Shown here piece by piece: positions 1 to 64,000 of a stretch of DNA of 64,000 nt. The stretch comes from Tetradesmus obliquus (lineage: Eukaryota > Chlorophyta > Chlorophyceae > Sphaeropleales > Scenedesmaceae): NCBI GenBank assembly GCA_030272155.1, contig CP126203.1, positions 3,658,001-3,722,000 of the forward strand, in the 5' to 3' direction. Position numbers and translations under genes: made by a program. The notes below the pieces were generated by a model. It saw only the letters and a program-made list of their open reading frames with translations, was not told the origin of the DNA and did no database searches. Numbering within the stretch: the first letter of the stretch is position 1; each line of letters begins with the position of its first letter.

Positions 1-561
1 GCACTGGTGTCACTGCCTGCGTCACTTGGGCAGCTGCAGCAGCTGAAAACGCTCAGCATCCGCAGCTGCCAGGGTTTGAAGACCCTACCTGAGTCACTAG
101 GCGATTTACAGCTCCTGCAAGTGCTGGATTTGCAGGACTGTTATAACTTAGCAGCACTGCCGCAGTCCTGCAGCCGATTGAGCAGCTTGCATACGCTGCA
201 GATTGGCGGCACGAGCATTGCAACAGCAGAGGATGATGAAGTAGGGTTGTTCCAGAGCTTGGTAGGGCTGTTTAGGCATGGCTGTGTTGAGGGTAGCCGG
301 CCAGGAAGCAAGCAGCAAGGCAGGGAGGAGGTGCAGCAGCGGATGCAGCAAATCTTGCAGCTGCAGGAAACCAAGCAGCAACAGCAGCGGCAGCAGCTGC
401 AGCGGCAGCAGCAGAGAGGCAGCTGGCTGCAGGAGGGTGTGTGGTGTGGTGTAGGGGTGCAGCGCAGCAGTGTGCTGCTGGTGGCAGCTGCAGCCAGCAG
501 CCTCCTTGCGACCGTAGTGTTGCTGAAAGCAGCATGCAGGCAGCAGAGCAGCCAAAGATGA
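1..561 (+). CDS. Leucine-rich repeat protein, C-terminal part
   Basis: The frame is already open at the first base, so the 5' part lies outside the window. About three plant-type LRR units of roughly 24 residues are visible (LPASLGQLQQLKTLSIRSC, then LPESLGDLQLLQVLDLQDC, then a weaker third). A Gln-rich stretch follows, then a hydrophobic alanine/leucine/valine helix close to the C-terminus (SSVLLVAAAASSLLATVVLL) with a short basic tail. This suggests a membrane-anchored LRR protein or, if the helix is not inserted, a soluble one. LRRs are protein-interaction scaffolds; no kinase, NB-ARC or other catalytic domain is present in the visible part, so the role is unknown. The stop is TGA. Family assignment is secure; function is not. 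Confidence 0.75.
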   Translation, partial: ALVSLPASLGQLQQLKTLSIRSCQGLKTLPESLGDLQLLQVLDLQDCYNLAALPQSCSRLSSLHTLQIGGTSIATAEDDEVGLFQSLVGLFRHGCVEGSRPGSKQQGREEVQQRMQQILQLQETKQQQQRQQLQRQQQRGSWLQEGVWCGVGVQRSSVLLVAAAASSLLATVVLLKAACRQQSSQR

Positions 562-904
562 TGCCATTGTTGATCTTAGGTAACGTACGCTTGCGCATCG
601 ACACTGCGTGACACAGCATCCTGGTTTTGCGCAGTGCCGTGCTGCAGCTGCTTGCAGGTACCACGTGGGAGGATTGGTGGGTAGCAGGTTGAGTGCAGGT
701 CGGTCGTTGCCTACCACGTGTCAGCTGCGCTGTAGCCGCTTCAGTGGCACATTGAGCAGCCTTTTTAAAGTGCAGCAAGCACAGTTGGTTTTAACCAAGA
801 CAACATGACCAGCAAGCTTTCAGTGACCTTCCGCGACGAGCAGTCGCACCACCAGCTTTTTTACCCGCCAAATCGCAGCAAATCCCACCGAAAAAAGTTG
901 CGAA

Positions 905-2132
905 ATGTCCAGCAGCATGTACAACATCATTCCAGGGGTTTCGCAGTTCAAGTCCGCCTTCCAGGCTGTGTGTGGGGACCTGGACGGGGCGAAGCAGACG
1001 CAGGAGGAGTTTTCGAAGGGATCTCCGGTCGTTTCGCAGATGCGTTCCGCTGTTGAGGTGGTCATGGGGGACACTGAAGCTGCCCGCGACACCCATATGT
1101 CTCAGAAACGTGCTGAAGAAGGCAGCAGAGACAGTCCCTGTCGTGGGCCACGTGGCTGCAGCAGTGCACTACGCCAAGGGTGACAAGTGAGTGCAGCTGG
1201 TGATCCGCACATTCATCTTGACATCATCAAAAAATGCCTTTAGCGGGCAGCTCTTGGAACAACTGAACAACAATTGCTTTGACAACTGCTGCAACAGATG
1301 CTGCTGCAGTGCCAGAAGGCGAGCAAGCACCCATGTACGCATGCTGCATATGCAGCAGCTAGGCGGGCAGCCACAGGCATCCTAGCCCGCAGCTGTGAAC
1401 TGTGTCACCTTGGTATGCTGCACCCTTTGTTTACCTACTGGGTACACCTGCTAGTAGCAGCCGCTTTGGCTCACACCGTGCCTGTGTGTTGCTGCTGTAC
1501 ACCGCGCCACTGCCACCGCACCATGCACTGCTGCAGAGAGAAAGCCAAGAGTGCTTGGCACAGCTCCAGCAAGACCGCAGGTGTGGTGGGCACAGCGCTG
1601 CCACTGGCAATCATCTGCCCTCCTGCAGCGGCTCCTGCAGCCTATGGGGCAGCACTTGCCTATGATGCTAGCCATTCCGCAGTCAGCGGGCACAAAAAGG
1701 GGCTAGTCGCAGCATATGGACGCATCCTGAAAGGCGAGAGCAATCCTGGAGAGGTTCATGATGTGCTGTTTGGGCTGGGGTCCATGGGCGCAGGCGTGGC
1801 ACTCGCTGAGACAGGAGCAGTAACAACGTCAGCAGCAGCAACAGGAGCCGATGCCGCTGCAGCCGCAGCTGCAGTGGAGACCACCAGGGCAGCAGTGGGG
1901 TTGCAGCTGATGCAGCAGCGGGTGCTGCAGCTGAGCAGCAGTCGCTGCTGCAGGAGGCAGCAGCAGCTGCCAGCCAAGAGGCTGCAGGTGCAGCTGACAC
2001 AGCTGGTCAAAGGACCACGATGCAAGGGGGCTTGCAACGATGGCAGGACAGGCTGTCGCAAAGAAGGTTGTCACGTCTGTGAGCTACGCGTCAGCTGGCA
2101 AGCAGGGAGTCACAAGCATGAAGGGGGTGTAA
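905..2132 (+). CDS. Conserved eukaryotic protein of unknown function, frame interrupted
   Basis: Two internally repeated segments open the protein: GVSQFKSAFQAVCGDLDGA followed by PVVSQMRSAVEVVMGDTEAA, then PVVGHVAAAVHYAKGDK. I recall this repeat from uncharacterised proteins of algae and other eukaryotes; no function is known to me. Exon 1 is 905-1188 and exon 2 starts at 1537 after a CTGCAG acceptor. The phase across the intron agrees and gives GDKEKAKSAW, followed by a Gly/Ala-rich hydrophobic segment (KTAGVVGTALPLAIICPP) and VAAYGRILKGESNPGE. Two frame changes are needed, one between about 1085 and 1105 and one or two after about 1890. The C-terminus probably ends at the TAA at 2130. Either the gene is decaying or the assembly has small indels. 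I could not find a splice solution that avoids the first break. Confidence 0.45.
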
Positions 2133-3482: not shown

Positions 3483-3521
<39 letters not shown>

Positions 3522-3763: not shown

Positions 3764-6530
3764 GTTTGTGATTCAGCTGGGAGTCAGCTTCCAGCAGCAT
3801 ACGTCACTCTCTGCTGAGCAGAGTGTTTGTATGTGTGTGAGCACATACATTGCATGGCTTTGTGTAAGCTACATCCAGTCTGCCGCCAACCAGCAGTTTG
3901 CATCGAAACTTTGTGTTTACAAAGCTGCCCTCGCTGAGCTGCCCACGCTGAGCGTGGCATTGAATCAAACTTAAAACCCAGCAGGAACCCCTCAAAAACA
4001 CGCCCCTCATCTCACCTTTGTGTCATACACAGTCAGCTGCAGCGGCTGCCCGTTCAGTGCTGCTGCAAGGTCAACGTTCACAAAGCCGCCCACGCTGAGC
4101 TTGTAGCTTGAAAAGTCGATCAGGTGCTGCCAGATGTGGAAGGTGTACACGTGCTGCGTGTCCAGCAGCAGGCTATCCAGGTTCTTGGGCGTGTCACACC
4201 ACTTGCGGCGCTTGTGCGGGCACAGCGGCGCGTCTGCAGGGATCAGCCAGATACAGATGCAAAGTGATACAAGTGCCAGCAGCTCAATACACATCGCACA
4301 AGCAGCTGCAATCATGGCCAATCACATACTCACGCTTGAAATCCCCCGGCTCCACTCACAGTTTTTTGGCAGGCAGGGCGGGGCTGAGCAGACGCATGCC
4401 CTCCTGCGTTTCTGCTAGCTTTGTCTCCCTGCCTAGCTCAGCAATTTAACACCCCCTGACATAACACACTGCTGCTTGATTACATCAACCAGAGCTGTGC
4501 GGCTTGCCACGCAACCACAGCAAAGCAACCGCAGTTCCAGAAGAGCTACTCACTGTGCTTGTCAACCAGGGCAGGGCTGAGCAGCTGCATGTCTTCCTGC
4601 GCCTCTGCTAGCTTTGCCTTGCTGCCTGGCTCAGCACTTGTAGCTAAATCCACGCTGCAACCACAGCACACAACAGCACGTTCATTTCCACTTCGAAATG
4701 CCGTTGCTGCCACCACACCACAGCAGGCTGCAGAACCTCAGACTTGGAACTCCACAGCAGGAACAGCCATATCAGTCAAAAACACTCACTGTGCTTGTCA
4801 GCCAGGGCCGGGCTGAGCAGCCGCATGTCCTCCTGCGCCTCTGCTAGCTGCGGCTCGCTGCCTGGCTTGCTCACGTTGACCAGCTGGCAGGCCGCCAGCA
4901 GCGGGTTCATGAAGTAGGGCAGCGCAGCGTACGCGTCCACCTGTGTGCTGCTGCTGAAGACCTTGGCTGCTGCTGTCATGACAAGCTCGCCCACCCAAGG
5001 CGGGGCATTGCCTGGCTTGACAAACTCCTGGCCCATGCACAGGCTGCTTGCAGGAACGGGGCGCTTGAAGCGGCCCTGCAGGAAACACCATGAGTTATGC
5101 GGGATTATAAGGCGGGCAGCAGGGAAAAACACCAGGCTTTCAAACTCCTGGCCGATGCACAGGCACTGGGCGCTTGAAGCGGCCCTGCAGGGACAGTTGT
5201 TGGGTTTGCATGACACGCCAGTTGGCAGGCGGCCAAGCAGCAATCAAGGGTTTGATGCATGACCTGGAGGGGCGTTACAGCTGGCTGCTGCTGACCTGGC
5301 ACACGACCTTCTGCTTCTATGCTAGTACATGTTATCAAGAGCTGGCTGCTGTTACTGCTGACAATGCACATGCTCTGGAATGGTGTCACAGTCATCTGCT
5401 GCTGCTGCTGCTGCCCAGTCACATGACGTGTTGCTGCTGACCTGGTGCATGACCTGCTGCTGACTGGCAGTGACCAAGCAACACAAATGTCACAGCTTGC
5501 TGCTGCTGCTGCTGCTGGCATGGCACATGATCGGACAGAGGCGCTTCTCGCTCATAAACAGAAGCTGCTGAATACACCACAGCAACCTTCCAACCCGCTG
5601 CTGCTGCCGTTGCTGCGCACCTGGCACATGATCTGGAAGAAGCGCTTCTTGCCCTCAAACAGCCGCTGCTGGCTGTTGGGCAGGCCCTTGAGGTGGATCT
5701 CCATGATGCCCTCGAAGAAGGCAGAGTTGATGGTCACGGGGCCCTGGTTGATGGGGATCTCGTGCTGAGGGTCTTTGCAGTTGTCGATGGTCTGCGGTTT
5801 GGAGGGTTTTGAGAGAGATCGGGGATTACAGGGGGCAGGGGTGCATGGTGTGAATGATTACAGGGGGCAGGGGTGCATGGTGTGAATGATTACAGGGGGC
5901 AGGGGTGCACGGTGTGAATGATTACAGGGGGCAGGGGTGCATGGTGTGAATGAGCAGCAGGGGGCAGGGGTGCATGGTGTGAATGATTACAGGGGGCAGG
6001 GGTGCATGGTGTGAATGATTACAGGGGGCAGGGGTGCATGGTGTGAATGATTACAGGGGGCAGGGGTGCATGGTGTGAATGATTACAGGGGGCAGGGGTG
6101 CATGGTGTGAATGATTACAGGGGGCAGGGGTGCATGGTGTGAATGAGCAGCAGGAGATAATGAGACGACAATATCGAAGCAGCGCAGCAGTTGAGGATGT
6201 CAAGATAACAGCAGGTAACAGGCAGCTGCCAAAGCATGCTGCGCAGCACTGCTGCTGTGAGGGCTGTGCCATCATCAGCTTGCTGCAGCTCACCTGGGCC
6301 TCAACCATTGGATTTGCGGATACAATCACGGGATAAGTTGAAGACTTGAGGATCTTTTCGTGGGATGGCATGGCGGGCTTGTGCCATGGGTGCACCTCTC
6401 CTGGCGCGCACTCGAAGCCACCAGCACACAGCTCGAAGCCAGGCGACGGCTGCTGTTTAGATGATGAACTGAGAGAATGTTTTGTGTGGGCGTCGTGTGT
6501 GGGTGGTAGTATCTCCGCTGTGCAGACCAT
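3548..6530 (-). CDS. DUF1769 (UPF0590-type) protein, five exons
   Basis: Exons 6530-6294, 5791-5621, 5075-4790, 4233-4016 and 3697-3548 join in phase to 353 aa. The core matches my memory of the fungal/plant DUF1769 family: VIVSANPMVEAQ, then GLPNSQQRLFEGKKRFFQ (about residues 115-132), GRFKRPVPASSLCMGQEF, CQLVNVSKPGSEP, VYTFHIWQHLIDFSSYKL and the near-terminal LVWHERLL. Molecular function of the family is not established. The start codon is the first Met of exon 1. Intron 1 holds a 32-bp minisatellite (5825-6146). Intron 4 ends in a long CTG tract (sense strand) directly abutting the CAG acceptor at 3698. Introns also hold partial copies of exon 3 at both edges (4372-4441, 4562-4640, 5145-5190) and of the exon 2 donor edge (near 5410-5545). 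Expression and localisation cannot be read from the sequence. Confidence 0.88.
3701..3762 (+). repeat. (CAG)n tract at a 3' splice site (CTG on the sense strand)
   Basis: About 20 uninterrupted CAG units. On the coding strand of the DUF1769 gene this reads CTG and runs into the CAG acceptor of the last exon. Confidence 0.95.
4372..4640 (-). repeat. Two exon-edge echoes of DUF1769 exon 3 (donor side)
   Basis: Segments at about 4372-4441 and 4562-4640 are diverged copies of the last 70-80 bp of exon 3 (4794-4880), which encodes LAEAQEDMRLLSPALADKH. All three share GGGCTGAGCAG followed by the CTTCCTGCG/CCTCCTGCG core. They lie in the intron downstream of the exon and are not needed for the reading frame. 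Confidence 0.8.
5825..6146. repeat. 32-bp minisatellite, about 10 copies, in an intron
   Basis: Head-to-tail units with the core GGGGGCAGGGGTGCATGGTG, almost identical to one another; one unit near 5951 starts AGCAGC instead of ATTACA. The array lies in intron 1 of the DUF1769 gene. No spacers, so it is not a CRISPR array. Confidence 0.95.
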
Positions 6531-8592: not shown

Positions 8593-11500
8593 GGCAGCTC
8601 ACCTGCGCAGTCAGCTGCACTGCTTGCACCCTCAGAGAAGGTGGTGTAACCAGCGGGGCATGGTGTGCAGGGCGCCCCCATGTTGAACAGAGCGTCATAG
8701 CTGCCTGCGCTGTAGCTGCCCTTGGGACATACGCGGCAGTTGGGGCCGGCGGGACCTCCGTACCTGCGAAAGTGACAGCGGCAGCAGCAGCAGCAGCAGT
8801 GAGAGCTTATGTGTAGCTGTAGCATACGCGGCAGTTGGGACCGGCCGGGCCTCCGTACATGCACATGTAACAGCGACACAGCATCAGCAGGAGCATCACT
8901 GGGCGCTTGAAATGCATGAACTTGGACGACTGCATCCAGCACGTGACACAAGCACTGTTGTGGGCCTTTCGGGAAATGCACACTGCACTGCATGCACACC
9001 ATACACATATGACTGCACATCATTTGCATGTATACACGCAGGTGTAGTAAACGCATGTCGGGACAGCCGGCACAGGTGAACTACACCTGTGCGTATACAT
9101 CAAATAATTATGCATCGATATGTGGATTGTTGTGTACTATGCCTGTGCATAATATGCAATTTGCCGCGTAGGGCACTCAAACCGCGGGACATGTGGCGCT
9201 GACACACATGCTGCCCTGCACACACATGACACACATATACATGCATTACACATGCATGCTTATACAGAAACATATGATAAACATGTTTGGATAGCCAGCC
9301 GCGTATTGCGCTGCATGATGGCACTCACCCGGCAGGGCACGTGGCGCTGACACACATGCTGCCTTGCAGCGTAGGGTTGGCACAGTCCAGCAGAGGGTTC
9401 AGCGCCTGCAGATTAGCCAGTGTAATGTCAAACCGCGCAGCCAAACCCTCGCAGCGCTCATTCCTAGCTGTTTCAAAGCTGCCATAGCTGTAGCAGATCG
9501 GCACGCCTGCAGGATCACTGTACTGCCGCAGCCGCCTTGCAGGAAGCGTGTTGTACTGCCGCTTGATGTACTGCTGCTGCAGCCGCCGGCGGCTGTGCTG
9601 CCTGTTGTAGTGCTGCAGCCGATGAGCAGTGTACTGCTGCTGCAGCCGCCTCTTGCCGGCTGCAGGGACTGCCTGTGAGGAGACACTGGCAGCTGCACGG
9701 CAGCAGCACACACAGAGGCGGGAGCGGAAGTTTCACAACACATGCAGATGCGCGTTTTTGACGCTCAACAGCGGTTTCTTGCTGTATGTAGTTGCGCTGG
9801 CACCCTCCAAGCTGTTCATGTCCTTCACTGCCACTTGCAGGGTTCGGGGCTTCAGGTGTACAAACTTCACACAGGAAGAAGCAGTGGCTAGAAATGCATC
9901 AACAGGCACCCCACTGCATGCTGGCTTACCAATGGATAGAACTTCAACGCTGCCATCTGTTCCTGCGAGTGCTGCCGTGGCTGCTGCCTTGCCCGCGCCG
10001 TTTACAGCGCTTGCATAGTTGTTGAAGGTAGAAGCCAGCTCCTGCACAGCTGTTGTGTTTGTGGGGTCATTGACGGAGGCGCTGATATTGTAGGCTGCTG
10101 TGGTGGTGGCACCAGGTACCTGAAGAGGCAGAAAATGAAGCCAAGCAACAGGACAAGTGAGTAGTAGGCGTCGCTGCATGAAGTGCATTTGGTGGCAGGG
10201 TGGGTGTTGTTCTGCTGCTGGAGGCATTGCTGCCGCTGTTGTATAGAGTTCTGACAAGCAGCCACAACAAGATATCCGCTGAAAGGGCAGAGAGCTTGCA
10301 GGACAACACAAGAGCTATGAGCCCTGTCATTGTAGCATCGAGTAACCCTCGCGTACCCGAGCTGTCCCGTCCCCTGCAAGCCTTGCTGCTACAACTCTTG
10401 TCTCTGAGGCTCCTGTCAGCAAAATAAAAAAGGGACTGGATCACAACTCACATCGGCGCATTCGCCAGCTGCCACATCGACCATGTCCTGCAGGTAAGGT
10501 GAGCCCACCATGTCCAGCAGCTGGCTGGTGACGCTGGCTGCAAGTGACTGGCCCACAGCAGCGCTGCAGGCGCCAGCCGCCACCACCTGCACCGACAGCA
10601 GCGGCAGCTCTACAGCTTCAGCCGAGCTAGGGCTTGGGCTGGGGCTGGGTGACACTTCAGGGCTGGGTGACACTTCGGGGCTGGGTGACGGGCTGGGTGA
10701 CACTTCGGGGCTGGGCGACACCTCGGGGCTGGGTGATGGGCTGGGTGACACCTCGGGGCTGGCTGACACCTCGGGGCTGGGTGACACCTCAGGGCTGGGT
10801 GACACCTCAGGGCTGGGGCTGGGTGACACCTCAGGGCTGGGTGACACCTCAGGGCTGGGGCTGGGTGACACCTCAGGGCTGGGTGATGGACTGGGTGACA
10901 CCTCGGGGCTGGCACTCGGTGACGGGCTGGGTGACACCTCAGGGCTTGTGCTGGGGCTGGGTGATTCGGTCACCGCAGGCAGCGGTGACGACATTGCGGG
11001 TGGGGTGCCAGCCAGCATTGCTGCCAGGCCTCCGGGGGGAAGCGGCAGGCAGGAGCGGCACACGTAGCCAGCAGAGCACACTGCAGGGCAAGACATGTGC
11101 ATTGCACTAAACTATCAGTCAAAGACCAGTGAGATCATGATTAATAGCCATTGTGATATGCAAACGGGCAGTTGCAGTGTATATGCGGTGTGCAGCATGT
11201 GGCTTCAAACACGGGTGACACAGACAGCTTGCAGGTGAACGCTGCACTGTGGATCAATGTGGGCTTGCAAGCCTCCATTGTCAAAATTTTCAAAATTTTG
11301 GGCAATGCCGACAACGGCAAGAGCAGCTGCAGCAATGCACGGCCCCTTCACTGCAGCAGCAGCAGCAACTCACTTGAGCATGCAGCAGCACTCGTAGCAC
11401 CTGGCGAGTTGGTCTCAAAGCCAGCGGGGCACTGACTACACCTCGGCTCCAAAAGCTCCGCAGTAGCACCAGGCGAGTAGTAGCCAATCGCACACAGCTG

Positions 11501-12405
11501 GCAGAACTGCCCACCCCTACCGGGGGCACATTTGCAAGCCCCTGACATCAGTTGATACCTTGGTGTGCTGCATTTGACACACACGGATGCTGCTGTATCT
11601 GTGCACAGCAGGCAGCCACGAGAGCAGTTGCTGCTGCGGGTTTGGCCGAAGACTTGTGCTGCGTAGTCGTAATCAGCGCCGGGCCGCACTGCTGCTGGGC
11701 TTGCGGGTGTAGGTGCTGCCAAGGGGGTTGGTGATGTTGCTGCTGCTGGGGCTGCTGGCGCGTCAATTGGCTCGCTGTAGATTACAGCAGCTGCAGCAGT
11801 AACAGCAGGAGTAGCAGCAGCAGCAGCAGCAGGCATAAGCAGGGTCACATCAGCGGTGCAAGTGCTGCGCAGGGGCAGGGGTGTCTGGTACTGCACATCT
11901 AGCTGCACTTCCCAATGCAAGCAGTTGGCTGCACATGACTTGCTGAAGTAACAGCTGTTGCCAGAGGCACCACAGTAACACACAGCTGCCAGAGCAACAA
12001 TGAACATGCCACTTTAATCCGCTTGTAAAACACTCAACAGACGCCTGCAGAAACAACAGCAGCACCACCCAGACCATAGCTTACATGCACCAAGGGCCGT
12101 GACGTTGGCCGGCAGCGCTGCTGTTGTCGCTGCGGGCAGCGCATTTGCAGCATTAATGCCTCGAGCAAAGCTGTTGAAGGCAGGTGTCAGCTGCTCCACC
12201 AGTGCTGCATTGCCCAAGGAGTCCTCTGCAATCATGGCTGTGAGGCTGTACACTGCGTCCTTGGCTGAGGCGTTGGTGGCTGAAGGCGCCTGCAACAACA
12301 GCAGCGCAGCAGCGGTGTATCAGGTGAGTTGAGTACAGGATTCACAGAATCAGGTTGTACACTGCGTCATTTGCTGAGGCGTTGGTGGCAGAGGGTGCCT
12401 GCGAT

Positions 12406-33275: not shown

Positions 33276-33449
33276 TCAGCAACAGGTGGTGGCCAGATAT
33301 TCAACTGCCATCTCAACATCACAGTTGCACTCCTGCAGCGCATCTACTGCTTTGCCCCTGCTGTAGCCCATCTCCAGCAGCTGAGCAACGCCAGCTTCAA
33401 GCGCTGCCTGCATCATCTCGCCTGCAGCAGCAGCAGCAGCAGTAGCAGT

Positions 33450-33494
<45 letters not shown>

Positions 33495-36400: not shown

Positions 36401-37003
36401 GATGTGGCAATCAACAATGGCACTTGTTGGAGCAGATATGACTTCTGTGCAAGGAAATCCAGCTGAAGAACCATCCTGATAATTAAACCTGCTGCTGTTA
36501 GCTAGTGTGCCAGGGTGCTGACGGACGATTAGCAGATGATTGATGGCTACTGTGACGCCGCGGTCCTACAAGGCTGGTGCACGCATGGCTGCTGCTGCTG
36601 CTGCTGCCAAGCAACAATGATTATAGAAGCTGCAGAGATGCGTCACCTGCTAGCGACTGTTGGCCCAGGAGTCGTTGCGTGCCCCCATTCAGCTGCTGAA
36701 TCATCTTGCCAGGCAGCAAGCCTGTTGCCTGGATCTGCAGCCACTGCCCCACCCCATACTTCATGAGGCACAGCTTGAGTATCAGCGACTCCTCCTTTGA
36801 CCAGCCCGGCGAAGGAGTGAAGTTCCACCTGCCAGATGACATACCCAGGAGGTAGCAGCAGAACATGCGTACTCAGCAGGGGCAGCAGTAGAGCAGGAGC
36901 TCAAGCACTGGCAGTGTCACTTGTGCTGGTTGGGTCAAGCAAACATCACAAGCGTAACTTACAAGGAAGCTGCATCGCCGATTTTGGGGCCTCGTTTGTC
37001 CAT
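33276..37003 (-). CDS. SANT/Myb-like domain plus UBA domain protein
   Basis: Exons 37003-36963, 36828-36647, 36268-36170, 35919-35868, 35629-35502, 35216-34883, 34329-34142 and 33421-33276 join in phase to 389 aa. After MDKRGPKIGDAAS comes a SANT-like helix-turn-helix (WNFTPSPGWSKEESLILKL, MKYGVGQWLQI, LLPGKMIQQLNGG), then VDVDRVRADNEAKLDAHRK, GPNPTKEMRLQWQQEAQEK and a helical ALHQQLQQVLCRAVQQHP part. A basic region (GKKRPRSK, RKQQQRRRGASGG) looks like a nuclear signal. The C-terminus is a UBA domain (VAQLLEMGYSRGKAVDALQE then VEMAVEYLATTC), which binds ubiquitin. This suggests a nuclear, chromatin- or ubiquitin-linked factor; the exact role is unknown. Introns contain echoes of exons 3, 7 and 8. 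Confidence 0.85.
33424..33492 (+). repeat. CAG tract next to the UBA exon acceptor
   Basis: CTG on the sense strand with a few CTA interruptions, ending at the CAG acceptor of the last SANT-UBA exon. Confidence 0.9.
33555..33867 (-). repeat. Three echoes of the UBA exon start
   Basis: Copies at about 33560-33606, 33702-33731 and 33825-33867 encode GEMMQAALEAGAAQLLL or GEMMQAALEAGVAQLLL, against GEMMQAALEAGVAQLLEMG in the exon (33375-33421). Each has its own Cys-Gln/His tail and CAG tract. Confidence 0.88.
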
Positions 37004-45643: not shown

Positions 45644-45717
45644 GTCACTTCACCTCTGACTCGGTGAGCAGCACACGCCGGTTGACCACCGGGCCAAACT
45701 TGACGCGCTGCAGCTTG

Positions 45718-45754
<37 letters not shown>

Positions 45755-45837
45755 ACTGCTGTGTTACCTCATCTTTGACTCGGTGAACAGCACGCACCTG
45801 TTGGCCACTGGGTCAAACTTGACGCGCTGCAGCTTGC

Positions 45838-45881
<44 letters not shown>

Positions 45882-45882
45882 G
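45598..45882 (-). repeat. Two echoes of the bL33m last exon with CAG tracts
   Basis: Downstream of the stop, 45768-45838 and 45651-45720 repeat the last 70 bp of the gene. They encode KLQRVKFDPVANRCVLFTES and KLQRVKFGPVVNRRVLLTES, each with its own stop soon after, and each preceded on the sense strand by a pure CAG tract ending in an AG. Confidence 0.93.
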
Positions 45883-46468
45883 TTACTTCATCTTTGACTC
45901 GGTGAACAGCACGCGCCGGTTGACCACTGGGTCAAACTTAACACGCTGCAGCTTGTAGGGCACGTTGCGCGGGTTCTTCTTCGTGACGTAGAAGTAGCCC
46001 GTCTGAGCTGTGGAGACCTGTTTTGGGGTGAGCAGACATGGAGTACATGCGTGTAATAATCAGTACAGCGAGCCGCGTGACCTGCAGCTTGTTGCTGCTG
46101 CTTGGAGGAGTGAGGCCGGGTGGTTGTGGAGGCCGGCGGACTGCATGCGATTGGCTGAAAGAACACGTATGATACCTCCGAGCTGACAAGCAAAGACAAG
46201 CAGATGTGCGTGGCTGCATGACAAGCCTGCTGCACATGCTACACCTGCGCTCCGTGCTGTTGAATCCTGATGGCTGTTGCTGTGTGTGTGCACTTTTGTT
46301 ACACTGAAGGTCTGCAAGCAAGCCTCAGTGGTTCTTGAGCATTATTTTCACAAAGCTACTGCTGCAGCAGATGCTGCTGGCACTGCTGCTCTGCTACTGC
46401 CTCCAACACGCAAGCTGCACACCCACCAGTTTGATCAGGATCTGCCCTAGCTTTTTCTTGCCAGCCAT
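45883..46468 (-). CDS. MRPL33: Mitochondrial large-subunit ribosomal protein bL33m
   Basis: Two exons, 46468-46427 and 46017-45883, join in phase to 58 aa: MAGKKKLGQILIKL, then VSTAQTGYFYVTKKNPRNVP, YKLQRVKFDPVVNRRVLF and TESKMK. This is the full bL33 pattern (TGYFYVTKKNPR, KFDP.V.R.VLF.E.K). It lacks the four zinc-binding cysteines, as mitochondrial forms do, and has no extra targeting sequence, also usual for bL33m. The role is an rRNA-binding component of the 50S-type subunit. The last exon ends at TAA. Two tandem partial copies of it follow downstream, each capable of acting as an alternative 3' exon. Shares a 550-bp divergent region with the 47022 gene. Confidence 0.92.
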
Positions 46469-47021: not shown

Positions 47022-49102
47022 ATGCCTAGCAAGCAGAGCAGCAGCGAATTTCTGCTACCCTGGGAGCAGCAAAATAGAAGGCAGAAGCGCAAGCAACAGC
47101 ACTCAGATAGCGCAGATGTCGTACAGTACGTCAAGTGAGTCCTAACCGGCTTGCATGCATACAGCCTGCTGCGGTTCCTTTCAATTGTAGTACTGCTCCT
47201 GTTGTAGTGCTTGCTTGCATGCATGCATCAACTGGCTGTTCCATGCATGCACGCATAACATAACACAATATCATCCTTGTATTTGCAGGTATGGCGCGGG
47301 AATCGCTGCAGGCATCACAGTTGTGGGCTGGATCAAGCGCAAAATCCAGGGCATTCCTGTGGTGGGCATTCTAGCAACGCCCTTCCTCTGTGAGTGGCTG
47401 GAAAAGGCAGCCGAACAATTGGCACCCGTAAAGAACTGGGTCTGAATTGCCTGGCGAGCCCGCCGCCTGCAGCAATGTTTTGGGCAGCAACATGTTTTGC
47501 TGCACAGCTGCTGCATGCATACGCAGCGCACATACATGCAGCATACATGCAGCATGTATGCACGCAGCACACATGTACGCAGTGTGCAGAGCACAAGACA
47601 GGCAGCAAGTGGCTTAGCCCCAGGTTTGACGTACTCACATCTGCACATCAACAATATCATGCGGTGCTTTTCACTTGTGTATGCTGCCGCAGGCCTGATG
47701 CTCACTGTATTGCTGGGCACCGCAGTTGGAGCAGCAGACTGTTCCCCTCACACTGCTCATGCTGGTATGCTGTTGACAGAGAGCGTTTGCTGTTGAACTG
47801 CTCTGCGTCGTATGCTGCTGCAGGCCTGATGCCCACTGTGCTGCTGGGCACTGCGGTTGGAGCAGCAGTTGTGTATGGCATAGATGAAGGCGACCCCATG
47901 GCGGCACAGAAGAAGGTACTGCCAAAGGTGCGACGCAGCAGCAGCAGCAGCAGCAGCAGTGTTACGCAGCAGCATGATGTAAGGCATAGACGAAGGTGAC
48001 CCCATGGCTGCACAAAAGAAAGTACTGCCAAAGCTGCGCAGCAGCAGCAGCAGCAGCTGCAGTGTTGTACGGGTCTGGGCCGATTTATCACTAGCGGCAG
48101 TGGTGCTTCAGTGCTCGCAGCTGCGCTGGAGTATTGATGCTGATCAACGGCAGCCACTCAGCAGCCACTCGGCACAGTAATTGAATCATAGTTAGAACAT
48201 GTAGCTGCATGCATGCTTTGGTATGCTACATCTGCACATCCACAGCCGCAACAGCGCAAATGATTGTGTCCCGCTTCTCTTCTTTTGTTGCAGGTGCACA
48301 AGCGGCTGAAGGCTGCCAGTACTGAAGTGGCAGCAGTAGCAACAGACCTGGGGCGCAGCCTCAAGGACATACACGGGCAGCACCTGGCAGCAGCAGAGAT
48401 GGCGGCACGCGAGGTGAGAAGCATGTGGCAGAGCTTATGGGGTTTCAGTGGTTATGGTTGTGGTTGTGGGTTTTGGGTTCAGTTTCAGGTGTTGTGTCCA
48501 TGGACATAAATGGGCAGCACCTGGCAGCAGCAGAGAAGGCAACGCGAGAGGTGAGAAGCATGCGGCATGGGTTTGGGGTTTCAGGACTTATGGTTTGGGG
48601 TTGTTTTGAAATGTTTCAGATGCTGCGACCATGTACAGACACGGGCAGCGCCTGGCAGCAGCAGAGATGGCAGCACGCGAGGTGAGCAGCATGTGGCAGC
48701 TGAAGTATTGTTGTCAACTTCAGCTGTAGACATGCATGTTGCTGTTTTGATAGGGTCTGCATTGCAGCTGCTGTTTGCTGTTTACAGATTGGGCAAAGTG
48801 ACGATGGATTTGCTTGCGCCCTGGACACTAGGTGTCATCAGCAATAGTCACGGGGATAAAATTGTGTCACATATTTGCAGCTTCATTTGCCATTGCTGTT
48901 TACACTTGCGCTGTTGCATCTGCCGTGGTGTTTGCTGCTGCCCTGTTATCCTGCAGGGCCAGGTAGCAATAGCACGCATGGCCTCAAGCTTAGACGCAGC
49001 AGCAGCAGAAGCAGAAGCCACGCTGGCACCAGCAGTAGAGCGGCATGTGAAGCTGGCCAAGAAGCAGCTGGATAGGCATGCAGGAGAATACAACGGCTGG
49101 CT

Positions 49103-50886: not shown

Positions 50887-51676
50887 CGGCCTGCAGGCGC
50901 TGTCGTACCGCCAGCTTGCGTTTGTGGGCGATGCCGCGCTCTGGATGCTGTTTGCGCAGCACGCTTTCCACACCTTTGGGCAGCAGGAGGACCCAGTCAG
51001 GTGAGCGGCTGGGCATTCGCTTCAGATACGGGGACCATAAGGTGCAATAAGGTGCATTTCATCGGATTGCATTGTATTGTATTGCATAAGGTGCATTGTA
51101 TTGCATTGTATTGCAATGCATTGTTGTGCAATTGGTTTGCGCAGCATCCCTTCCACTGCTACGGGCTGCAGGAGAGCCCAGGTCAGGTGCGCGGCTGGCA
51201 ACTGCATCAAACCCAGCGTATTGATGTGCAGTACATTGTCATGCATGTGGTTTGCGCAGCACGCCTTCCACACATTTGGGCAACAGGAGCAGGAGGACTC
51301 AGTCAGGTGAGCAAGAACGAGGGCCAGAAATGTGTCAGGTTCAAAGCTGTGTGACTTGAGTGCATCTGTATGTGTAAATGTGTAGAGCCAACGCATCAGG
51401 GCTGCGCATTGGCTGGTACAGCCATCCTGCCCGCAACTGCGAAAATGTCTTATGTAGATTGAGATTGAGTGCGCACACAGCACGCGGCATAAGACCAATG
51501 TGTGCCATAGCACTACCTACTGCTGCTGTGCTGCTGCTAGCCGCCGCTCCTGCTTTTCTGAGTGTTGTATATTCTTCTGTGCAGCGGCGGCTGGCCTGCG
51601 CAGATGTCAGGGCTGCTCAGCCGTGCTAGCTGCGCAGCAACAGCCCGGCAGTGGGGCCTACAGGCCTACCTGCAGC

Positions 51677-51997: not shown

Positions 51998-52878
51998 GCG
52001 TGCAGGGCGTGCAGGGTAGCAGCTGGGTGTGTGCAGCCACCAGCAGCAGCACTTGTGCTGAGCTAGAGCAGATGGTGCTGCTGCTGCAGGAGCATCTTTA
52101 CCAGCAATGCGGCTACTGCTTCCAGGACATGGGGTTGTTACACACCTGCAGTGAGCATCTTCTGCAACTGCTGTCTAGTGGCAGTAGCAACCCGCAAGCC
52201 GACAAGTGGCACTTCATAGGCTTCAGTCTGCTGCAGTTTGCAGCAGCGCAGCACGCTTATACAGAGCAGTGCGAGCCCCTGACAAGCAGCAGCATGTGGC
52301 AGCAGCTGCGGTGGCGGCAGCAGGGGCACGGCGTGGTTGCAGCTGCTGCTGCTGCATCTGACTCGATCAGCTGCAATACATTCAGTGAGGCAAGCAGCTT
52401 ACTCAGCTCAAACAGCAGTGACTTTGGCAGTTTCAGTGAGGATGCCTGCTGCAACAGGACTAGCAGCAGCAGCAGTAGCAGCAACCAGGTGCACCTGATG
52501 AGCAAGCAGATGGCCAACCTGACAAACCTACGCCACAGGTGGGAGGGGCGCTGACACATTGCTACTGCGCAGCATGCGTTACATGTATCGCACGACATCA
52601 CAAGCCTGTGCTCTGTGCATGTCTTTCTGTACGCCGCTGCATACTGCAGTACATTCACTTGCAGATGGTGACTGTGCCCAAACCTGTCGTTGTGTACATC
52701 TTCTGAGTGCACTGCTGTCGGTGCATGCAAGTAAATTGCCCTGCCAAACCCCTGCTGCTGCTGCTGCCGCAGGGCCAAAATGTGGCTGTGGCTAGGCCTG
52801 GACCCCTCCCCGCTGCTGCCGGCAGACAGCTACCTGCTCATTTCAAAGTGCAAGCTACAAAAGCAAGCCTGCCAAACC

Positions 52879-52944
<66 letters not shown>

Positions 52945-53234
52945 GCAGGGCCAAGATGTGGCTGTGGCTAGGCCTGGACCCCTCACCGCTGCTGCCAGTA
53001 GACAGCTACCTGCTTTCCTCAAAATGGAAGCTACAAAAAGCAGCTCTGGCCAGGTGCCTTGACCTACTGCTGGCAGCTGTTTATGTAGATGGAGGTATGC
53101 AGCCAGCAATGCACGTGCTGCAGCAGCTGCTGCAGCAGACGCCGCCCACTGGCCTATGCAAGGCGTGGATTCCCGGCTGGGCGCAGAAGAGTGGCAGCAG
53201 CTGGGGTGGAACGCTGTACCGTAAAGCGCGATAG
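50152..53234 (+). CDS. Tandem RNase III-domain protein with degenerate active sites
   Basis: Exons 50152-50248, 50341-50642, 50897-51000, 51585-52538 and 52949-53234 join in phase to 580 aa. The N-terminus (MRSLQRAALLTKTSAADS) has the basic, hydroxylated look of an organelle presequence. RNase III domain 1: LQEFLGYEFRREELLAQACT, SYRQLAFVGDAALWMLF, ATARQWGLQAYLQHS, DALAEMFEGVMGALLLD. The usual E in LEFLGD is Ala141, Asp145 is kept, the D in AD.FEA is Glu228, and Glu231 is kept. Domain 2: CFQDMGLLHTCSEHLLQLL, WHFIGFSLLQFAAAQHAY, LARCLDLLLAAVYVDGG; the E and D of its signature are His and Phe, so it should be inactive. No helicase, PAZ or clear dsRNA-binding domain. Two such domains without a helicase suggest either an organellar rRNA-processing or ribosome-structure role (as in mL44), or a reduced Dicer relative. 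Long Ser and Gln tracts lie in exon 4. Confidence 0.82.
51095..51310 (+). repeat. Two echoes of the donor edge of RNase III exon 3
   Basis: 51138-51190 and 51245-51308 copy 50950-51000 (FAQHAFHTFGQQEDPV). The second keeps the reading and a GTGAGC donor (AQHAFHTFGQQEQEDSV). A TTGCATTGTAT-type simple repeat fills the space before them. Confidence 0.85.
52735..52948 (+). repeat. Echo of the start of RNase III exon 5 and a 75-bp CTG tract
   Basis: 52772-52870 encodes AKMWLWLGLDPSPLLPADSY then LLISKCKLQKQA and matches the exon start at 52949. It is followed by about 25 CTG units (52871-52943) that end in the exon's CCGCAG acceptor. Confidence 0.92.
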
Positions 53235-55410: not shown

Positions 55411-55758
55411 GTTGCTGCACTGCACTGTGTCCCTTTCTTTCTGGACATAGCACTCTTGTTGCTGCACTGCACTGCACAAGTTGACGCTGCATGCGCTGTT
55501 GCTGCACTGCACTGTGTCCCTTTCTTTCTGGACATAGCACCCTTGTTGCTGCACTGCACTGCACAAGTCGACGCTGCATGCGCTGTTGCTGCACTGCACT
55601 GTGTCCCTTTCTTTCTGGACATAGCACCCTTGTTGCTGCACTGCACTGCACAAGTTGACGCTGCATGCGCTGTTGCTGCACTGCACTGTGTCCCTTTCTT
55701 TCTGGACATAGCACCCTTGTTGCTGCACTGCACTGCACAAGTCGACGCTGCATGCGCT
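55411..55758. repeat. 87-bp tandem repeat, four copies
   Basis: Units share GTGTCCCTTTCTTTCTGGAC and CTGCACTGCACTGCACAAG. The period is a multiple of three, so frames stay open on both strands, but the translations (ALHCVPFFLDIAPLLLHC) show no protein signal beyond repetition. Confidence 0.95.
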
Positions 55759-55975
55759 GCGCCGCTGCTGGCGTGTCACAGTGTTGGCTTGCTCGCACGC
55801 TTGAAGCATCCATGGTGCAAGCACCTGCACAAGACAGCAAGCATGGGAAACATTGTCAACTGATGCATCTGCCGCAGACATGTTCAGCTTGCACAAGCAC
55901 GCAATGATGTCAACCTGACTTGAAGTGCAGCTTCTGGCAGCCTCTGTGCATGGCTTTGGCGCCAGCCTGCTTGCA

Positions 55976-57723: not shown

Positions 57724-59169
57724 TGGTTGTGTGGGCGGTTGAGGTTTGGCGTGCTTTCAACTCTGCTGTTGCTACTGGGGTTGCGGTGTGAAGCAGGCAT
57801 TATGTGCTTTACGTGCAAGGTAACAGACAGCATTGCAGTGCATGACCTGCTGCTGCTGCTGCCGCTGCCCCCCTGTGCCCTTGTCACCTGGCATGGAAAG
57901 ACCTTCATGTCCTGCGGCTGCCAGTCCTACAGCGCAGCCTAACTCATCATGTCTTGTGGTTGCCGTCCGCAAGATGACAGTCAACATACGATCACACTGT
58001 CATACTGTCACCTTGCATGTAAAGAACATCATGTCTTGTGGTTGCCAGTCTTCCGCCACTGCTGCCGGCGCCAGCTTGCGCCGCACAGCAAACAGGAAGG
58101 CCAAGTTGGAGCCGACAGTCAGCAGCGTGTAGATCAAGACCACCACAAACAGAACAAGTCCAGAGTACTGCAGCAGCACCAGCAGCAGCAGCAGCAGCAG
58201 CAACAGCATTTGAAGCAGCAGCAGCAGCAGCAGCAGCAGCAGATCAGGAATTGAGGCGGCAATGAGAAGCTGCTAGCATGAGCAACACATGTGGAGAGAG
58301 TTTGTTTGTGACACGCCGCATGCCTTGTATGCAACCGATGCGCAACCGTCATGTATTCAGCAAGACACCAGTCCTATAGTCCTATTGTTGACTATAGGAC
58401 AACCATAGTCTGGAGTTGTCTGGAAGCACTGCTGCAGTGAACGGTATTGAAGCATCATCTGGTGTCCATCCTCTTCAAATCCATTCTTATACACTTAGTG
58501 CGTAACACACTACACACCTCATGCGTTCGTCCTTTGACACTCACCGTTGACTTGACATCAAGGTCAGGGCGGCGCAGCCTCTGGTGCATCACGCCGCATC
58601 CCATGCTTGCACACGGCAGCACAATGACGCACTGCAGCAGCCGGTGCAGCAGCTGCTGCCGCTGGGGGTAGCCTTGCCGCACACAATACAGCCACTGCCG
58701 TACGGCCTGCTTCTCTCTTGTGCTTGGGGGTGGTAACCAGCGGGGCCTGTTGCCCCACTTTTGCACTGTGTGTGGTGACAGGTCGTCTTCTGCTGCGCTG
58801 CTGCTGCTGCTGCTGTTGCCGCTGATCCAGGGGAAGGGCGGCGAAAGGTACGGCTGAAAGGCAGGAGGAGCAGCAGCAATCAAGGTGCGGGTATAAACAG
58901 CAGTGGCAGCAACGTCAAGGCTGGTTTGGGAAAGGAAGAAATATTTTTATCGCGCGCAAGCCGCCGCCCCGCCGCAGCAGGTGCAGCACGCATGCCGATC
59001 ATAAAGATGGTCGTTGTCTTCTGCTGAGTAGTTTTAAGTGCCGCTGCAGCAGCATCCACAGCAGCAGCCTCACCTCCCAGTACACCAGCAGCAGCGCTGC
59101 CACTGCGCCCCAGAACAGGAAGTGCTCCACCACCTGCGCGTAGCCTGCAATGAACCTGATTGATACAAC

Positions 59170-59214: not shown

Positions 59215-60450
59215 CTTGTAGGTTGAGTAGCAGGCAGGCCGTCAGCTGCTAGTGCTCAGCTGCTGAGTCGGCAAGTGCCCATTGCACCTACTGAGCACTG
59301 CCAGCGACTGAACCAGACGTGTAGCTTGCACCCCCATGCAAACACAGCTCAGAAGAAAACCCACATGGTTATGCACATCTGCTCCTATGGCACGCAACCG
59401 ACATGTTTGCGCACACCTGCTCCCAGAGACAACACCCAGCATGTGAAAAGCTGCTACACATGGCATCATGCAGCTGACAGGCCTAGAGACATAGCTATCC
59501 ACGTTTGCTGCAACCCACTTTGCCAGCACATTAAGATGTTTTTTGGTGATACTGCTACATTATTCTGTGATCTCACATGGCCAGGTAGAAGGTGACCAGG
59601 TTCCTCCAGCTCGCACTGAACTTCTCCACCTGGTACAGCAGCCTGCAGCAGGCAGCAGCATAGCAGCAAGCACACACAGCAGCAAGCAGACGGCCAGGGC
59701 GTGAAACTGTCTCCACCTGGTACAGCAGCCTGCAGCAGCACACAGTGTAGCGGCACACAGCCAGGGCTAAGTTTGCAGCTCATCACAGTGTGCGACGCAG
59801 CTCATGTTTTGAAGTGTAACGTACAAGCGCTCAGCCACACAACTTTGCAGCACGCAGCACGCAGCACGCAGCACGCAGCACGCAGCCAGCGCATTACGCT
59901 TTCAGGTCAACGTTTTGTGCAACGCAGATCCCCTTTCTGTTTTGTAGCACACAACCGCCTCAGCCACACCACCTGCAGCACGCCGCGTGTTGGCAACGGG
60001 CAGCACACAGCAACAGCCACAGGACGCTGCAGCATGCAGCACACAGCACCACGTGCCATCAGCAGCCCAGTCGCTGTCACCTGTACCCTGTGTTGCACTG
60101 TGCTTTGTCAACGTGTGCTCCCTGCTATAAATCACAGTAGCACAAGCAGCAGTCACTACATGTCACCTGTAGCCTGTGTATTCGTCAAAGTCATCCGGCT
60201 GCGCACGCTGCCACACCTGGCCTCCCAAGCGCTCTGGCACACCTGCACGCCAGCAATCAGCAGCCGGCACAGCAGCACGTCAAGCAACCAATTTGCACAC
60301 TTGCACGTCCGAAATCAACAGCCGCCACAGCAGCAGACCTCCGTACGTCCGCGTCTTCAATCGGCAGCCAATATGGGGCAGACCTCCAATTTGCGGGAGG
60401 CAGCCTGCACATGTGCTGTACAGAGCCTCTGCCGGGCAGATCCATGCTCC
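55976..60450 (-). CDS. Multi-pass membrane protein, 5' end unresolved
   Basis: Seven 3' exons join in phase: 59144-59074, 58853-58545, 58167-58012, 57543-57441, 57180-56533, 56333-56198 and 56054-55976 (stop TGA). Membrane segments seen in order: FLFWGAVAALLLVYW; LLQCVIVLPCASMGCGVM; YSGLVLFVVVLIYTLLTVGS; LVAGAFVTYMPPTIFWLSVA; GWSIIVLLILQVLPCIAILA; YVQLLYALVCLGIISGYYAL; SWIAGCSGLMVLSY. Between the fourth and fifth is a long polar loop rich in Ser, Ala and Asp (SDDVAVSLDCAEAANFMVNG). I do not recognise the family; a channel or transporter is possible. Upstream, VEKFSASWRNLVTFYLAM (near 59580-59645) and LLLWRLLISDVQVCKL/LLCRLLIAGVQVCQSAWEA (60240-60345) look like further exons or their echoes, but I could not join them in phase. 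CTG tracts (sense) lie just upstream of four of the exons. Confidence 0.65.
57361..57428 (+). repeat. (CAG)n tract, intronic (CTG on the sense strand)
   Basis: About 22 units in the intron immediately after the exon 57543-57441 donor. Confidence 0.95.
57590..57720 (-). repeat. CTG tract and echo of a membrane-protein exon start
   Basis: About 27 CAG units (57640-57720 on plus; CTG on the sense strand) are followed on the sense strand by ATCCTGTGCCAGTTCGTCAA, a copy of the exon start ATCCTGGGCCAGTTCCTCAA at 57543. Confidence 0.93.
57800..57970 (-). repeat. Two echoes of the donor edge of a membrane-protein exon
   Basis: Around 57810-57925 and 57945-57965 the sequence repeats GACTGGCAACCACAAGACAT and flank of the exon end at 58012-58050. 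Confidence 0.7.
59169..59214 (+). repeat. (CAG)n tract, intronic (CTG on the sense strand)
   Basis: About 15 units, roughly 25 nt upstream of the exon that starts at 59144. Confidence 0.93.
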
Positions 60451-61812: not shown

Positions 61813-62858
61813 ATGGCTCCTCAGAAGTTGTCGACTTGGAAGGGTAATTCAGCTTTTCTTCGATCGGTTTGCAAGAACACAGCGGCCATGCAGTACATAC
61901 TCGCCAGCTTGACACCAGCAGCAGCAGAGGGCCCTCTGCTGCTGCCCTGCTTGCCAGCATGAGGACAACATCCTCACTCACAACAGTTCCCCATGCAGCA
62001 GCTTGGCATTCTCACGCTCACATACATCCTTAAACACCGCAGTGCTGGTTGCACTTGTCTTTTCCTCACAGCAGCATGTGCGCTTCGCTTCACCAGCACC
62101 AACACAACGCCCTGTACTTGAACTGGCCGTAGTGTGTTGAACACGGGCAGTAGTGTGTTTACCACAAACATGGTTGTGATGAGCTGACAATCATCTGCCT
62201 CACGTCGCTGCGCAACTGTGCTGCTGTTTGTTTGCTGCCAGCGCATGGCAGCCAGCAGGACTTCATGCAGCGGGACAACTGCATCATCGTGACAGAGGAT
62301 GACGCAGTGACAGGCACAGCAAACAAATATGACAGCCACAGGTGAGTTAAACTGAAGCCTCAGCAGCAGCAGCAGCAGGGGCAGCAGCAGCGCAGTTGGC
62401 AAATAACACAAAGTCACACCCAGTGTCTCTAGCACCAGCACTGGGCAACAGCACCAGCACCAGCGCAGCACGTGCGCCAGGGGCAGCATCTGCAGCAACC
62501 TGTGCGGCTTCCTGCAGCTGTGCTCGTGAGTGCTGCAGTACGGCTGCACCTCTTCCTCAAAACGCGTTGCTGCTGCTGCTGTTGCTGCTGTAGGTTCCTG
62601 CCTGAACAGCCGCGTGGGCTGCTGCACCGGGCCTTCAGCGTGTTCCTGTTCAACAGCGAAGGCAAGCTGCTGCTGCAGCAGCGGGCCACAGACAAGATCA
62701 CCTTCCCTGGTAAGCCAGGCAGCAGCGGCAGCAGCAGCAGCAGCAAAGATTTTTCCGATGGACTAGATCACTCTCCCTGGTGCACAAGGCACCAGCGCCA
62801 CCAGCAGCAGTGGCAGCAGCAGCAGCAGCGGCAGTGCGCAGCGCCTGTGGCATGTAGC

Positions 62859-62902
<44 letters not shown>

Positions 62903-64000
62903 ACAGCCACAGTCACCTTTCCTGTTGCACCTGCCTGCCTTACTTCTGCAGGCGTGTGGACCAACACGTGCAGGCAGCCACCCGCTGTACTGGCAGCAGC
63001 AACCAACATCTAAACTGCGGCAACGCCTGCTTGCCTGCCTGTTTCTTTCCTTCAGGCGTGTGGACCAACCCCTGCTGCAGCCACCCGCTCTACGGGCAGC
63101 AGCCAAACGAGCTGGACTGCTATTCCAATGCCTGTCTGCGTGCCTGTTCATGTTACCTGTGTTTGCAGGCGTGTGGACCAACACCTGCTGCAGCCACCCG
63201 CTCTACGGGCAGCAGCCAAACGAGCTGGACTGCTATTCCAATGCCTGTCTGCGTGCCTGTTCATGTAACCTGTGTTTGCAGGCGTGTGGACCAACACCTG
63301 CTGCAGCCACCCGCTCTACGGGCAGCAGCAAACCGAGCTGGACTGCTATTCCAATGCCTGTCTGCGTGCCTGTTCATGTTACCTGTGTTTGCAGGCGTGT
63401 GGACCAACACCTGCTGCAGCCACCCGCTCTACGGGCAGCAGCAAACCGAGCTGGACTGCTATTCCAACGCCTGCCTGCTTGCCTGTCCATGTTACCTGTC
63501 TTTGCAGGCGTGTGGACCAACACCTGCTGCAGCCACCCGCTCTATGGGCAGCAGCCAAACGAGCTGGATCCAGACGAAGCAATAGCAGACGCCAGCGTGC
63601 CTGGCGCCAAGGCAGCAGCAGTGCGCAAGCTGCAGCACGAGCTAGGCATCAGCCCGCAGCAGCTGCCGGCAGACAGGTTCAAGTTTCTGACGCGGCTGCA
63701 CTACTGCGCGGCTGACACGGACACGCACGGGCCGGATGCGGAGTGGGGCGAGCATGAGATCGATTACATCCTGCTCGCACAGGTGGGCTGCGGTTTTGGG
63801 GTTTGGCATGAATGGGGTTCGGTGTGGTTTTGTTTGTTATATCTGTTGTGCTGCGATCATCAGTCGCACCAGTGCCCGATGAGGAGTGGGGTGAGCATGA
63901 GATTGACTACAGGCAGCTGGCGCAGGTGGGGCTGTGTTGCAGTTTCAGTGTCTTCAAGTGTTGTTTGTGTGTGATGCGGTGTTGTGCTGGGACTATCTTA
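61813..64000 (+). CDS. IDI1: Isopentenyl-diphosphate delta-isomerase type I, 5' part
   Basis: Exons 61813-61843, 62242-62341, 62594-62709 and 63508-63782 join in phase; the gene continues beyond the window. The enzyme interconverts isopentenyl and dimethylallyl diphosphate, feeding carotenoid, sterol and phytol synthesis. Seen: MAPQKLSTWK, AHGSQQDFMQRDNCIIVTED, NKYDSHRFLPEQPRGLLHRA, FSVFLFNSEGKLLLQQRA, TDKITFPG, VWTNTCCSHPLYGQQPNELD (catalytic Cys), AAVRKLQHELGISPQQLPAD and EWGEHEIDYILLAQ (catalytic Glu). No long transit peptide precedes the conserved part. The intron before exon 4 contains five earlier versions of the exon 4 start, and 63862-63926 is an echo of its donor edge (DEEWGEHEIDY). 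The short exon 1 was chosen because only it gives a Met and the correct phase. Confidence 0.9.
62952..63507 (+). repeat. Five echoes of the IDI exon 4 start, the last four in a 113-bp array
   Basis: Acceptor-bearing copies begin at 62952, 63056, 63169, 63282 and 63395, with the real exon at 63508. From 63056 the period is exactly 113 bp, made of about 60 bp of exon (VWTNTCCSHPLYGQQPNELD) plus about 53 bp of intron ending TTTGCAG. The 62952 copy is older and diverged (VWTNTCRQPPAVLAATNI-like). Confidence 0.97.

Follow-up and report, generated by a model that had tools for sequence, protein, structure and literature searches.

Exon edges of the alga Tetradesmus obliquus are repeatedly found as partial same-strand copies in the adjoining introns. 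These copies, in the following called exon-edge echoes, had been proposed for a stretch of 64,000 nucleotides of assembly GCA_030272155.1 (C13:3658001-3722000, in the following the window), and the analysis of a larger sample confirmed that they are real and extend beyond it. At least one echo was found in 59 of 409 introns, about one in seven. The best explanation, to which slightly less than even probability is assigned here, is a gene-associated tandem duplication of units of about 120 base pairs (bp) with later exchange between the copies of the exon half. Ongoing tandem duplication was among the meanings considered in the original prediction, and it is still the best reading of the echoes. 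New compared with that prediction are the spacing of about 120 bp, the low number of copies between genes and the abrupt end of similarity on the intron side of the splice site.

The genome comprises 104,662,953 bases in 17 contigs. The GC content of the window is 56.3%, and 56.5% is tabulated for the assembly in PMC12571836. The window and five blocks of 40 kb form a six-block sample of 264 kb, which was extended by two further 40 kb blocks to an eight-block sample of 344 kb; 2500 bases of one block are N. A gene-finding hidden Markov model (HMM) was written for the analysis, trained on the 264 kb and then run on the 344 kb, and all exon/intron edges are its predictions from sequence alone. 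After training, the donor signal of the HMM resembled GTGAG and its acceptor signal was (C/T)TGCAG; the model returned 409 internal introns in the eight blocks. Simple repeats, which make up 6.7% of the window, were masked before the repeat comparison, and a same-strand copy of an exon edge inside its own intron was counted as an echo at a score of at least 36.

In the 344 kb sample, 34 of the 398 donor and 34 of the 407 acceptor edges have an echo, whereas the reverse-complement control on the same 409 introns yielded one donor and no acceptor. This agrees with the original description of both edges being copied in the same orientation next to the parent exon. Among the first 309 introns, 29 donor and 32 acceptor edges have an echo, compared to none at either edge in a control using other introns. 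The bias in orientation is also visible without gene models: 107 same-strand but only 10 inverted pairs closer than 2 kb were obtained by self-comparison of the masked window, and in the six blocks many direct pairs were found at 60–500 bp, while inverted pairs at 20–1000 bp (bits ≥ 36) were absent from all of them. Only 3 of 1023 exon-interior 60-mers (more than 80 bp from an edge) match the adjacent intron, and 0.4% of 792 intergenic 60-mers match the next 300 bp. For exon-interior windows compared with the next exon stretch the rate is 3.3% of 665. Intron-interior windows match the next intron stretch in 7.5% of 438 cases, a figure that includes the units of the echo arrays themselves, and this rate weighs against a strict edge-only rule. 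The spread is uneven, as echoes occur in all eight blocks, yet in the C9 block they affect only one of 46 introns, and there only the donor edge. In the window, 7 of 15 multi-exon models and 13 of 79 introns contain echoes at the above score, so that the original statement that nearly every multi-exon gene is affected turned out to be too broad. By a cruder criterion, a repeat cluster counts if one of its copies extends across a modelled edge; this applied to 42 of 96 clusters in the 264 kb, compared to 29.8 expected, and the window taken by itself showed no excess (15, with 14.5 expected).

The distance between edge and echo is 120.3 bp with a standard deviation of 15.6 bp (n = 50, below 165 bp), and successive copies along a chain are spaced by 82–158 bp in 75 of 84 cases. 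The exon halves of the echoes measure 24–92 bp and the spacer, which is the rest of the period, mostly 38–108 bp. Introns with an echo have a median length of 404 bp (n = 59), those without one of 248 bp (n = 350). The shortest period of the repeat clusters is 80–165 bp in 91 clusters and 20–79 bp in eight; with the clusters also being tied to exon/intron transitions, an interpretation as minisatellites was rejected.

Among the clusters with a period of 80–165 bp, 66 straddle an exon and an intron, where 33.5 are expected under random placement. Clusters restricted to exons (8 vs. 14.7 expected), to introns (6 vs. 15.7) or to intergenic regions (3 vs. 19.3) are fewer than expected; of the six intron-only clusters, three share their intron with an echo array, and the bL33m locus accounts for one of the three intergenic ones. 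The count at edges is thus higher than that in exon interiors and intergenic DNA, a comparison on which the original prediction had been staked. A set of 28 clusters with an alignment covering 0.75 or more of the period, which is not picked by the exon half alone, contains 21 clusters straddling exon and intron (13.4 expected), no intergenic cluster (4.9 expected) and one intron-only cluster, not significantly different from the 2.8 expected. The rarity of clusters between genes suggests a link with transcription. The echo periods are a multiple of three in 18 of 68 cases and not so in 50, whereas near-identical repeats lying wholly inside modelled exons have such a period in four of four cases and those ending within 10 bp of an intron in two of three. 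Since exonic periods are multiples of three while those of the echoes are not, this pattern fits a removal of the echoes along with the intron. The few datable full-unit junctions run 0–1 bp beyond whole periods, their number being too small to decide on the originally suggested seeding at CAG/CTG microhomology.

The exon half of the copied unit resembles its parent well, differing at 327 of 3282 sites (about 10%). The intron half was analyzed by prefix alignments, which omit echoes with a match start more than 2 bp from the edge, and by an identity profile and a z test, both of which omit those starting more than 6 bp away; periods above 165 bp were excluded from the prefix alignments and from the homology tests (p < 0.1; z). 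In 25 of 38 echoes, the prefix alignments extend no further than 15 bp from the splice site on the intron side, whereas the exon side is copied over 24–75 bp. At 7–20 bp into the intron the identity is 0.47 for acceptors (n = 28) and 0.40 for donors (n = 26), compared to a background of 0.27–0.28. The alignments of the z test contain 0.03–0.11 gaps per aligned intron site, a value inflated by mild gap costs. Homology of the intron half is clear in 14 of 44 echoes (z ≥ 3) and reaches p < 0.1 in 27 of 48, whereas it is absent (z < 1) in 16 of 44. In the class with z ≥ 5, mismatches amount to 0.149 in the intron half and 0.107 in the exon half. Judged by these alignments, at least part of the echoes appear to be ordinary tandem duplications; in the remaining ones the intron half would either have been lost far faster than the exon half or never have been copied.

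The second possibility corresponds to a copying process anchored at the splice site, by which 25–75 bp of exon starting from the splice site would be copied about 120 bp away without the intron side, e.g., by template switching, through repair starting from the CAG at the edge or with RNA as the template. The early end of the intron-side similarity and the many flanks that look unrelated are consistent with it, as is an intron on C1 with three echoes that share their exon boundaries but have different spacers. However, more than half of the tested flanks (the 27 of 48 mentioned above) keep some homology, the young arrays described below copied their spacer together with the exon part, and such a process offers no reason for the excess of third-position differences between echo and parent. 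It is considered unlikely. The same doubt applies to a junction-tied process, perhaps RNA- or transcription-guided, which would repeatedly write exon-edge copies of 25–75 bp at a fixed distance of about 120 bp and make introns a running record of older exon-edge versions.

The mismatches between parent and echo are distributed over the codon positions 1, 2, and 3 as 65, 67, and 195, which corresponds to a mismatch rate of 18% at third and 6% at first and second positions (ratio 2.98, 2.37–3.78). Base composition does not account for this excess, and CpG mutation was rejected as its cause, as a ratio of about 3 persists outside of CpG and CHG (0.126 vs. 0.040). Gene conversion was rejected as well, since it should lower the excess and the mismatches are not clustered. 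The ratio is 2.37 for echoes with and 3.66 for those without a homologous intron half, a difference within error. In arrays with at least two echoes, changes private to one echo are mildly third-biased (33, 28, and 51), whereas parent-specific changes are strongly so (5, 4, and 18). Of the 19 indels in the exon halves 18 are not a multiple of three. The acceptor AG is retained in 27 of 34 echoes and the donor GT in only 18 of 34, and no consistent second splice site could be recognized by eye in the echoes. Taken as they stand, the echoes look mostly unconstrained today, and part of their divergence seems to have built up in a coding state, either in the parent or in another allele before copying.

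The codon pattern, being independent of base composition and CpG, together with the retained acceptor AG and the in-phase copies in MED6, would also be expected if all or many of the echoes are, or once were, in use as alternative exons or splice sites and are held by selection. The frame-breaking indels, the frequent loss of the donor GT, the 50 periods that are not a multiple of three and the lack of a consistent second splice site speak against this, and a general role of this kind seems rather improbable. The original suggestion that echoes are a source of alternative exons was therefore not sustained as a rule, with MED6 as a likely exception. An artefact of assembly or haplotype joining, which had been doubted from the beginning, is hardly credible: the copies cover a continuous range from near-identical to strongly diverged, as first described, their differences follow the above codon pattern (65, 67, and 195), and without exception they lie on the same strand, share one scale and occur, though unevenly, in each of the eight blocks.

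The favored mechanism, duplication followed by exchange, could act in the following way. Short tandem duplications, each about 120 bp in unit length, would keep arising in the genes of T. obliquus, probably when staggered breaks in transcribed regions are repaired by end joining. That fill-in and end joining of such breaks can yield small tandem duplications is known from PMC8355091. An insertion inside an exon would survive mainly if the frame is kept. A duplication across a splice junction would be nearly harmless, because the spliceosome can still use the copy joined to the rest of the exon, and the other copy would be left in the intron as an echo. Unequal pairing of the exon-half copies would then add or remove units. 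It would also renew the echo with sequence of the parental exon, which is under selection, and in part probably with that of diverged alleles, which would add third-position differences. The outer intron flank, lying outside of the repeated unit, would be excluded from the exchange and decay beyond recognition.

Plain neutral tandem duplication, combined with a detection bias by which the conserved partner makes edge copies easier to see, is a simple assumption and suits the class with homologous intron halves (z ≥ 5). Nevertheless, a simulation with the same detection and a uniform indel rate of 0.15 per substitution predicts an intron-side identity of 0.63–0.72 at 7–20 bp, well above the observed profile, and a third-position share of 0.44–0.45 for a neutral echo and a constrained parent, compared to 0.60 observed. 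Intron-only and intergenic clusters are also too few for it, and this explanation is regarded as decidedly improbable. Since the simulation misses both the intron-side profile and the third-position share, an exchange step would be needed in addition to the duplication. This rejection of neutral decay would carry less weight if indels were much more frequent in introns of low complexity.

Several points weigh against duplication with exchange as well. Both misfits of the simulation apply to it as far as exchange is left out, and exchange itself, which we infer, was not favored by the one test made: the patchiness of mismatches that it should leave within echoes was not found (51 pairs; 39% of the permutations were as patchy). 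Exchange alone would furthermore lower the third-position excess, and the appeal to diverged alleles is made for this reason. The echoes without intron-half homology have exon halves that look no older. Finally, the mechanism does not account for the unit size of about 120 bp.

Two arrays are young. The units of the IDI array are 97% and those of an array at C7:3038985 98% alike; each unit begins with the CAG of the acceptor and includes a copy of the spacer along with the exon part, while the sequence in front of the first unit is different. Both arrays show that whole units were gained recently. A further echo-like array, a stretch of 62 nucleotides in four copies across exon edges, was observed at L036:47-543.

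In MED6, a stretch of the 3′ exon is present three times with a period of 253–258 bp, and each copy was modelled in-phase with its own splice sites, the copies being readable as in-phase exons of 120 and 156 bp. The differences among them are mostly synonymous by eye, and the copies may represent candidate alternative exons. According to the original prediction, in-phase gene models can be obtained only by skipping the echoes; this fits IDI but not MED6, where the copies themselves can be read as exons. Tandem exon duplication and mutually exclusive exons are a known kind of gene structure, to which the MED6 copies may belong. Typical echoes differ from mutually exclusive exons in being partial exons without a second splice site, and duplication of this kind was rejected as the general class, as only 18 of 68 periods and 1 of 19 indels are multiples of three, MED6 being the exception.

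Exon-edge echoes are known in type, whereas their density, their spacing and the sharp contrast between the two halves are unusual. In titles and the beginnings of abstracts, supplementary files and preprints aside, no report of exon-edge echoes was found in the literature, and none in Sphaeropleales. As described in PMC4974935, a tandem duplication across an acceptor edge of the potato RdRp gene copied the tail of the intron together with the head of the exon, and a duplication crossing an intron-exon boundary would be common to both systems. The potato case is a single one, however, in which a new intron arose via a cryptic donor (PMC4974935), while in the alga 59 of 409 introns and both edges are affected, the units repeat at about 120 bp and the echoes stay inside the existing intron. 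The AGGT-type intron gain described in the same source likewise starts from a short tandem duplication beside splice sites, but it needs a duplicated piece that is exonic and an intron as long as the period, which is not the case in the alga. The intron length is within 10 bp of the period in none of 61 echoes, so that AGGT-type gain was rejected and the originally suggested role of the echoes as a general source of new introns was not supported. The small tandem duplications treated in PMC8355091 are also direct, tens of bp long and attributed to repair of staggered breaks; they were studied in human and mouse cells and are stated there to be found in plants as well, and the text available from this source makes no link to exon edges.

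Introners, as described in PMC9860276, resemble the echoes as a large-scale intron-changing process in algae. The echo could then be the target duplication of a mobile intron-making element, and one spacer of the C1 intron indeed contains a dispersed element of 34–42 bp (core GTTGACAGAGANATTGCATTTTGCATGTAAGCGT), which occurs at 29 places of the genome with at most three mismatches, compared to none for a control pattern; its copy at L033, one of seven examined, likewise lies between echo and parent edge. The spacers are not a family, though, as only 12 of 50 show a match (E ≤ 0.01) to any other intron among the 409, with several of these matches being weak or within the same gene, and by this intron-to-intron comparison a mobile family was ruled out for the 50 spacers. 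The short target duplications of 3–9 bp reported in PMC9860276 are missing, the echoes being 24–75 bp long, and insertion of introners is very improbable. Six of the seven examined copies of the dispersed element lie inside modelled introns, and an Rfam search of the seven loci gave no match above the gathering score. Five identical copies were observed in C3:2328689-2498207 with spacings of 34323, 48954, 51885, and 34323 bases, an arrangement resembling large segmental duplications in tandem.

Same-strand repeats could be identified at all eleven loci named originally, and only the sub-position 13700 was not recovered, its neighbouring region being a masked CAG run. The features are listed in Table 1. 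The spliced window models match the Pfam families Duc1, methyltransferase, UBA, Med6, NUDIX, and Ribonuclease_3. The names ArsM and IDI were taken from the original prediction; the latter presumably fits, going by its motif. CAG/CTG trinucleotide runs are very frequent across the whole window. In-frame tandem repeats were observed inside modelled exons at 55404-55759 (87 bp, four copies), 20884-21062 (18 bp, ten copies), 37409-37710 (153 bp, two copies) and 10642-10946 (18/30 bp units of Ser-Pro type), and a minisatellite with a 32 bp unit and 97% matches lies in a modelled intron at 5824-6154.

Table 1. Echoes and related repeats in the window, based on self-comparison with simple repeats masked and on modelled edges where noted, and the dispersed element (last line).
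Feature	Position	Strand	Remark
Duc1 (DUF1769) gene, exon edge in three copies	4353..4867	-	Pfam Duc1, E 1.7e-49
Duc1 gene, acceptor echo	5011..5191	-	
Duc1 gene, donor echo	5521..5671	-	
'Matrix' gene, acceptor echo	8728..8862	-	Period 95
'Matrix' gene, donor echo	9172..9368	-	Period 148
'Matrix' gene, acceptor echo	12243..12400	-	Period 109
Methyltransferase (ArsM-like) gene, acceptor echo	22211..22407	-	Period 126; Methyltransf_31, E 9.2e-25
Methyltransferase (ArsM-like) gene, donor echo	22544..22786	-	Period 134-136
Methyltransferase (ArsM-like) gene, acceptor echoes	22879..23201	-	
Methyltransferase (ArsM-like) gene, donor echo	23438..23647	-	Period 138; intron side not homologous
Gene edge, three repeated copies	27509..27817	-	Gene model uncertain; little or no gene in HMM model
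NTF2-like gene (originally predicted name), repeated copies at exon edges	27831..28320	-	Model without Pfam match
29783 gene, 3′ part, five related copies	30941..31746	+	Gene model uncertain; little or no gene in HMM model
UBA-domain gene, acceptor echoes	33375..33859	-	UBA, E 6e-07
Acceptor echo	36241..36405	-	Period 95; intron half likewise homologous
MED6, two acceptor echoes	40005..40369	+	
MED6, exon stretch in three copies	40400..41064	+	Modelled as in-phase exons; Med6, E 1.3e-37
bL33m gene (originally predicted), three copies	45648..45954	-	119 bp period; strand and name by eye, outside gene models; little or no gene in HMM model
47022 gene, acceptor and further echoes	47679..48032	+	
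47022 gene, copies	48362..48699	+	137 bp period
RNase III gene, three repeated copies upstream of domain exons	50942..51312	+	Ribonuclease_3, E 5.8e-08; little or no gene in HMM model
RNase III gene, repeat across modelled acceptor	52774..53038	+	176 bp period
Donor echo	57882..58050	-	Period 124
Acceptor echo	59619..59738	-	Period 87
IDI (NUDIX) acceptor array, five echoes upstream of true exon start 63508	62932..63568	+	Unit 113 bp; NUDIX, E 4.4e-12
IDI donor echo	63731..63945	+	Period 143
Dispersed element	L007:3346-3379	-	Also at L033 and 27 further genome places

Recently gained introns with a proven origin are few, as stated in PMC4974935. Among the sampled introns of T. obliquus, 59 of 409 preserve dated intermediates, whose divergence ranges from almost none to strong; the comparison carries its own clock, as the parental exon is under selection and the echo is free. 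The origin, the size limit and the fate of edge duplications become countable this way. The echoes would also supply competing splice sites and additional exons, as in MED6, and in practice they call for caution when genes are predicted in genomes of this kind. If it is true that the copying is anchored at splice sites, this would be a new mutational process. The echoes could help to show how introns grow and change.

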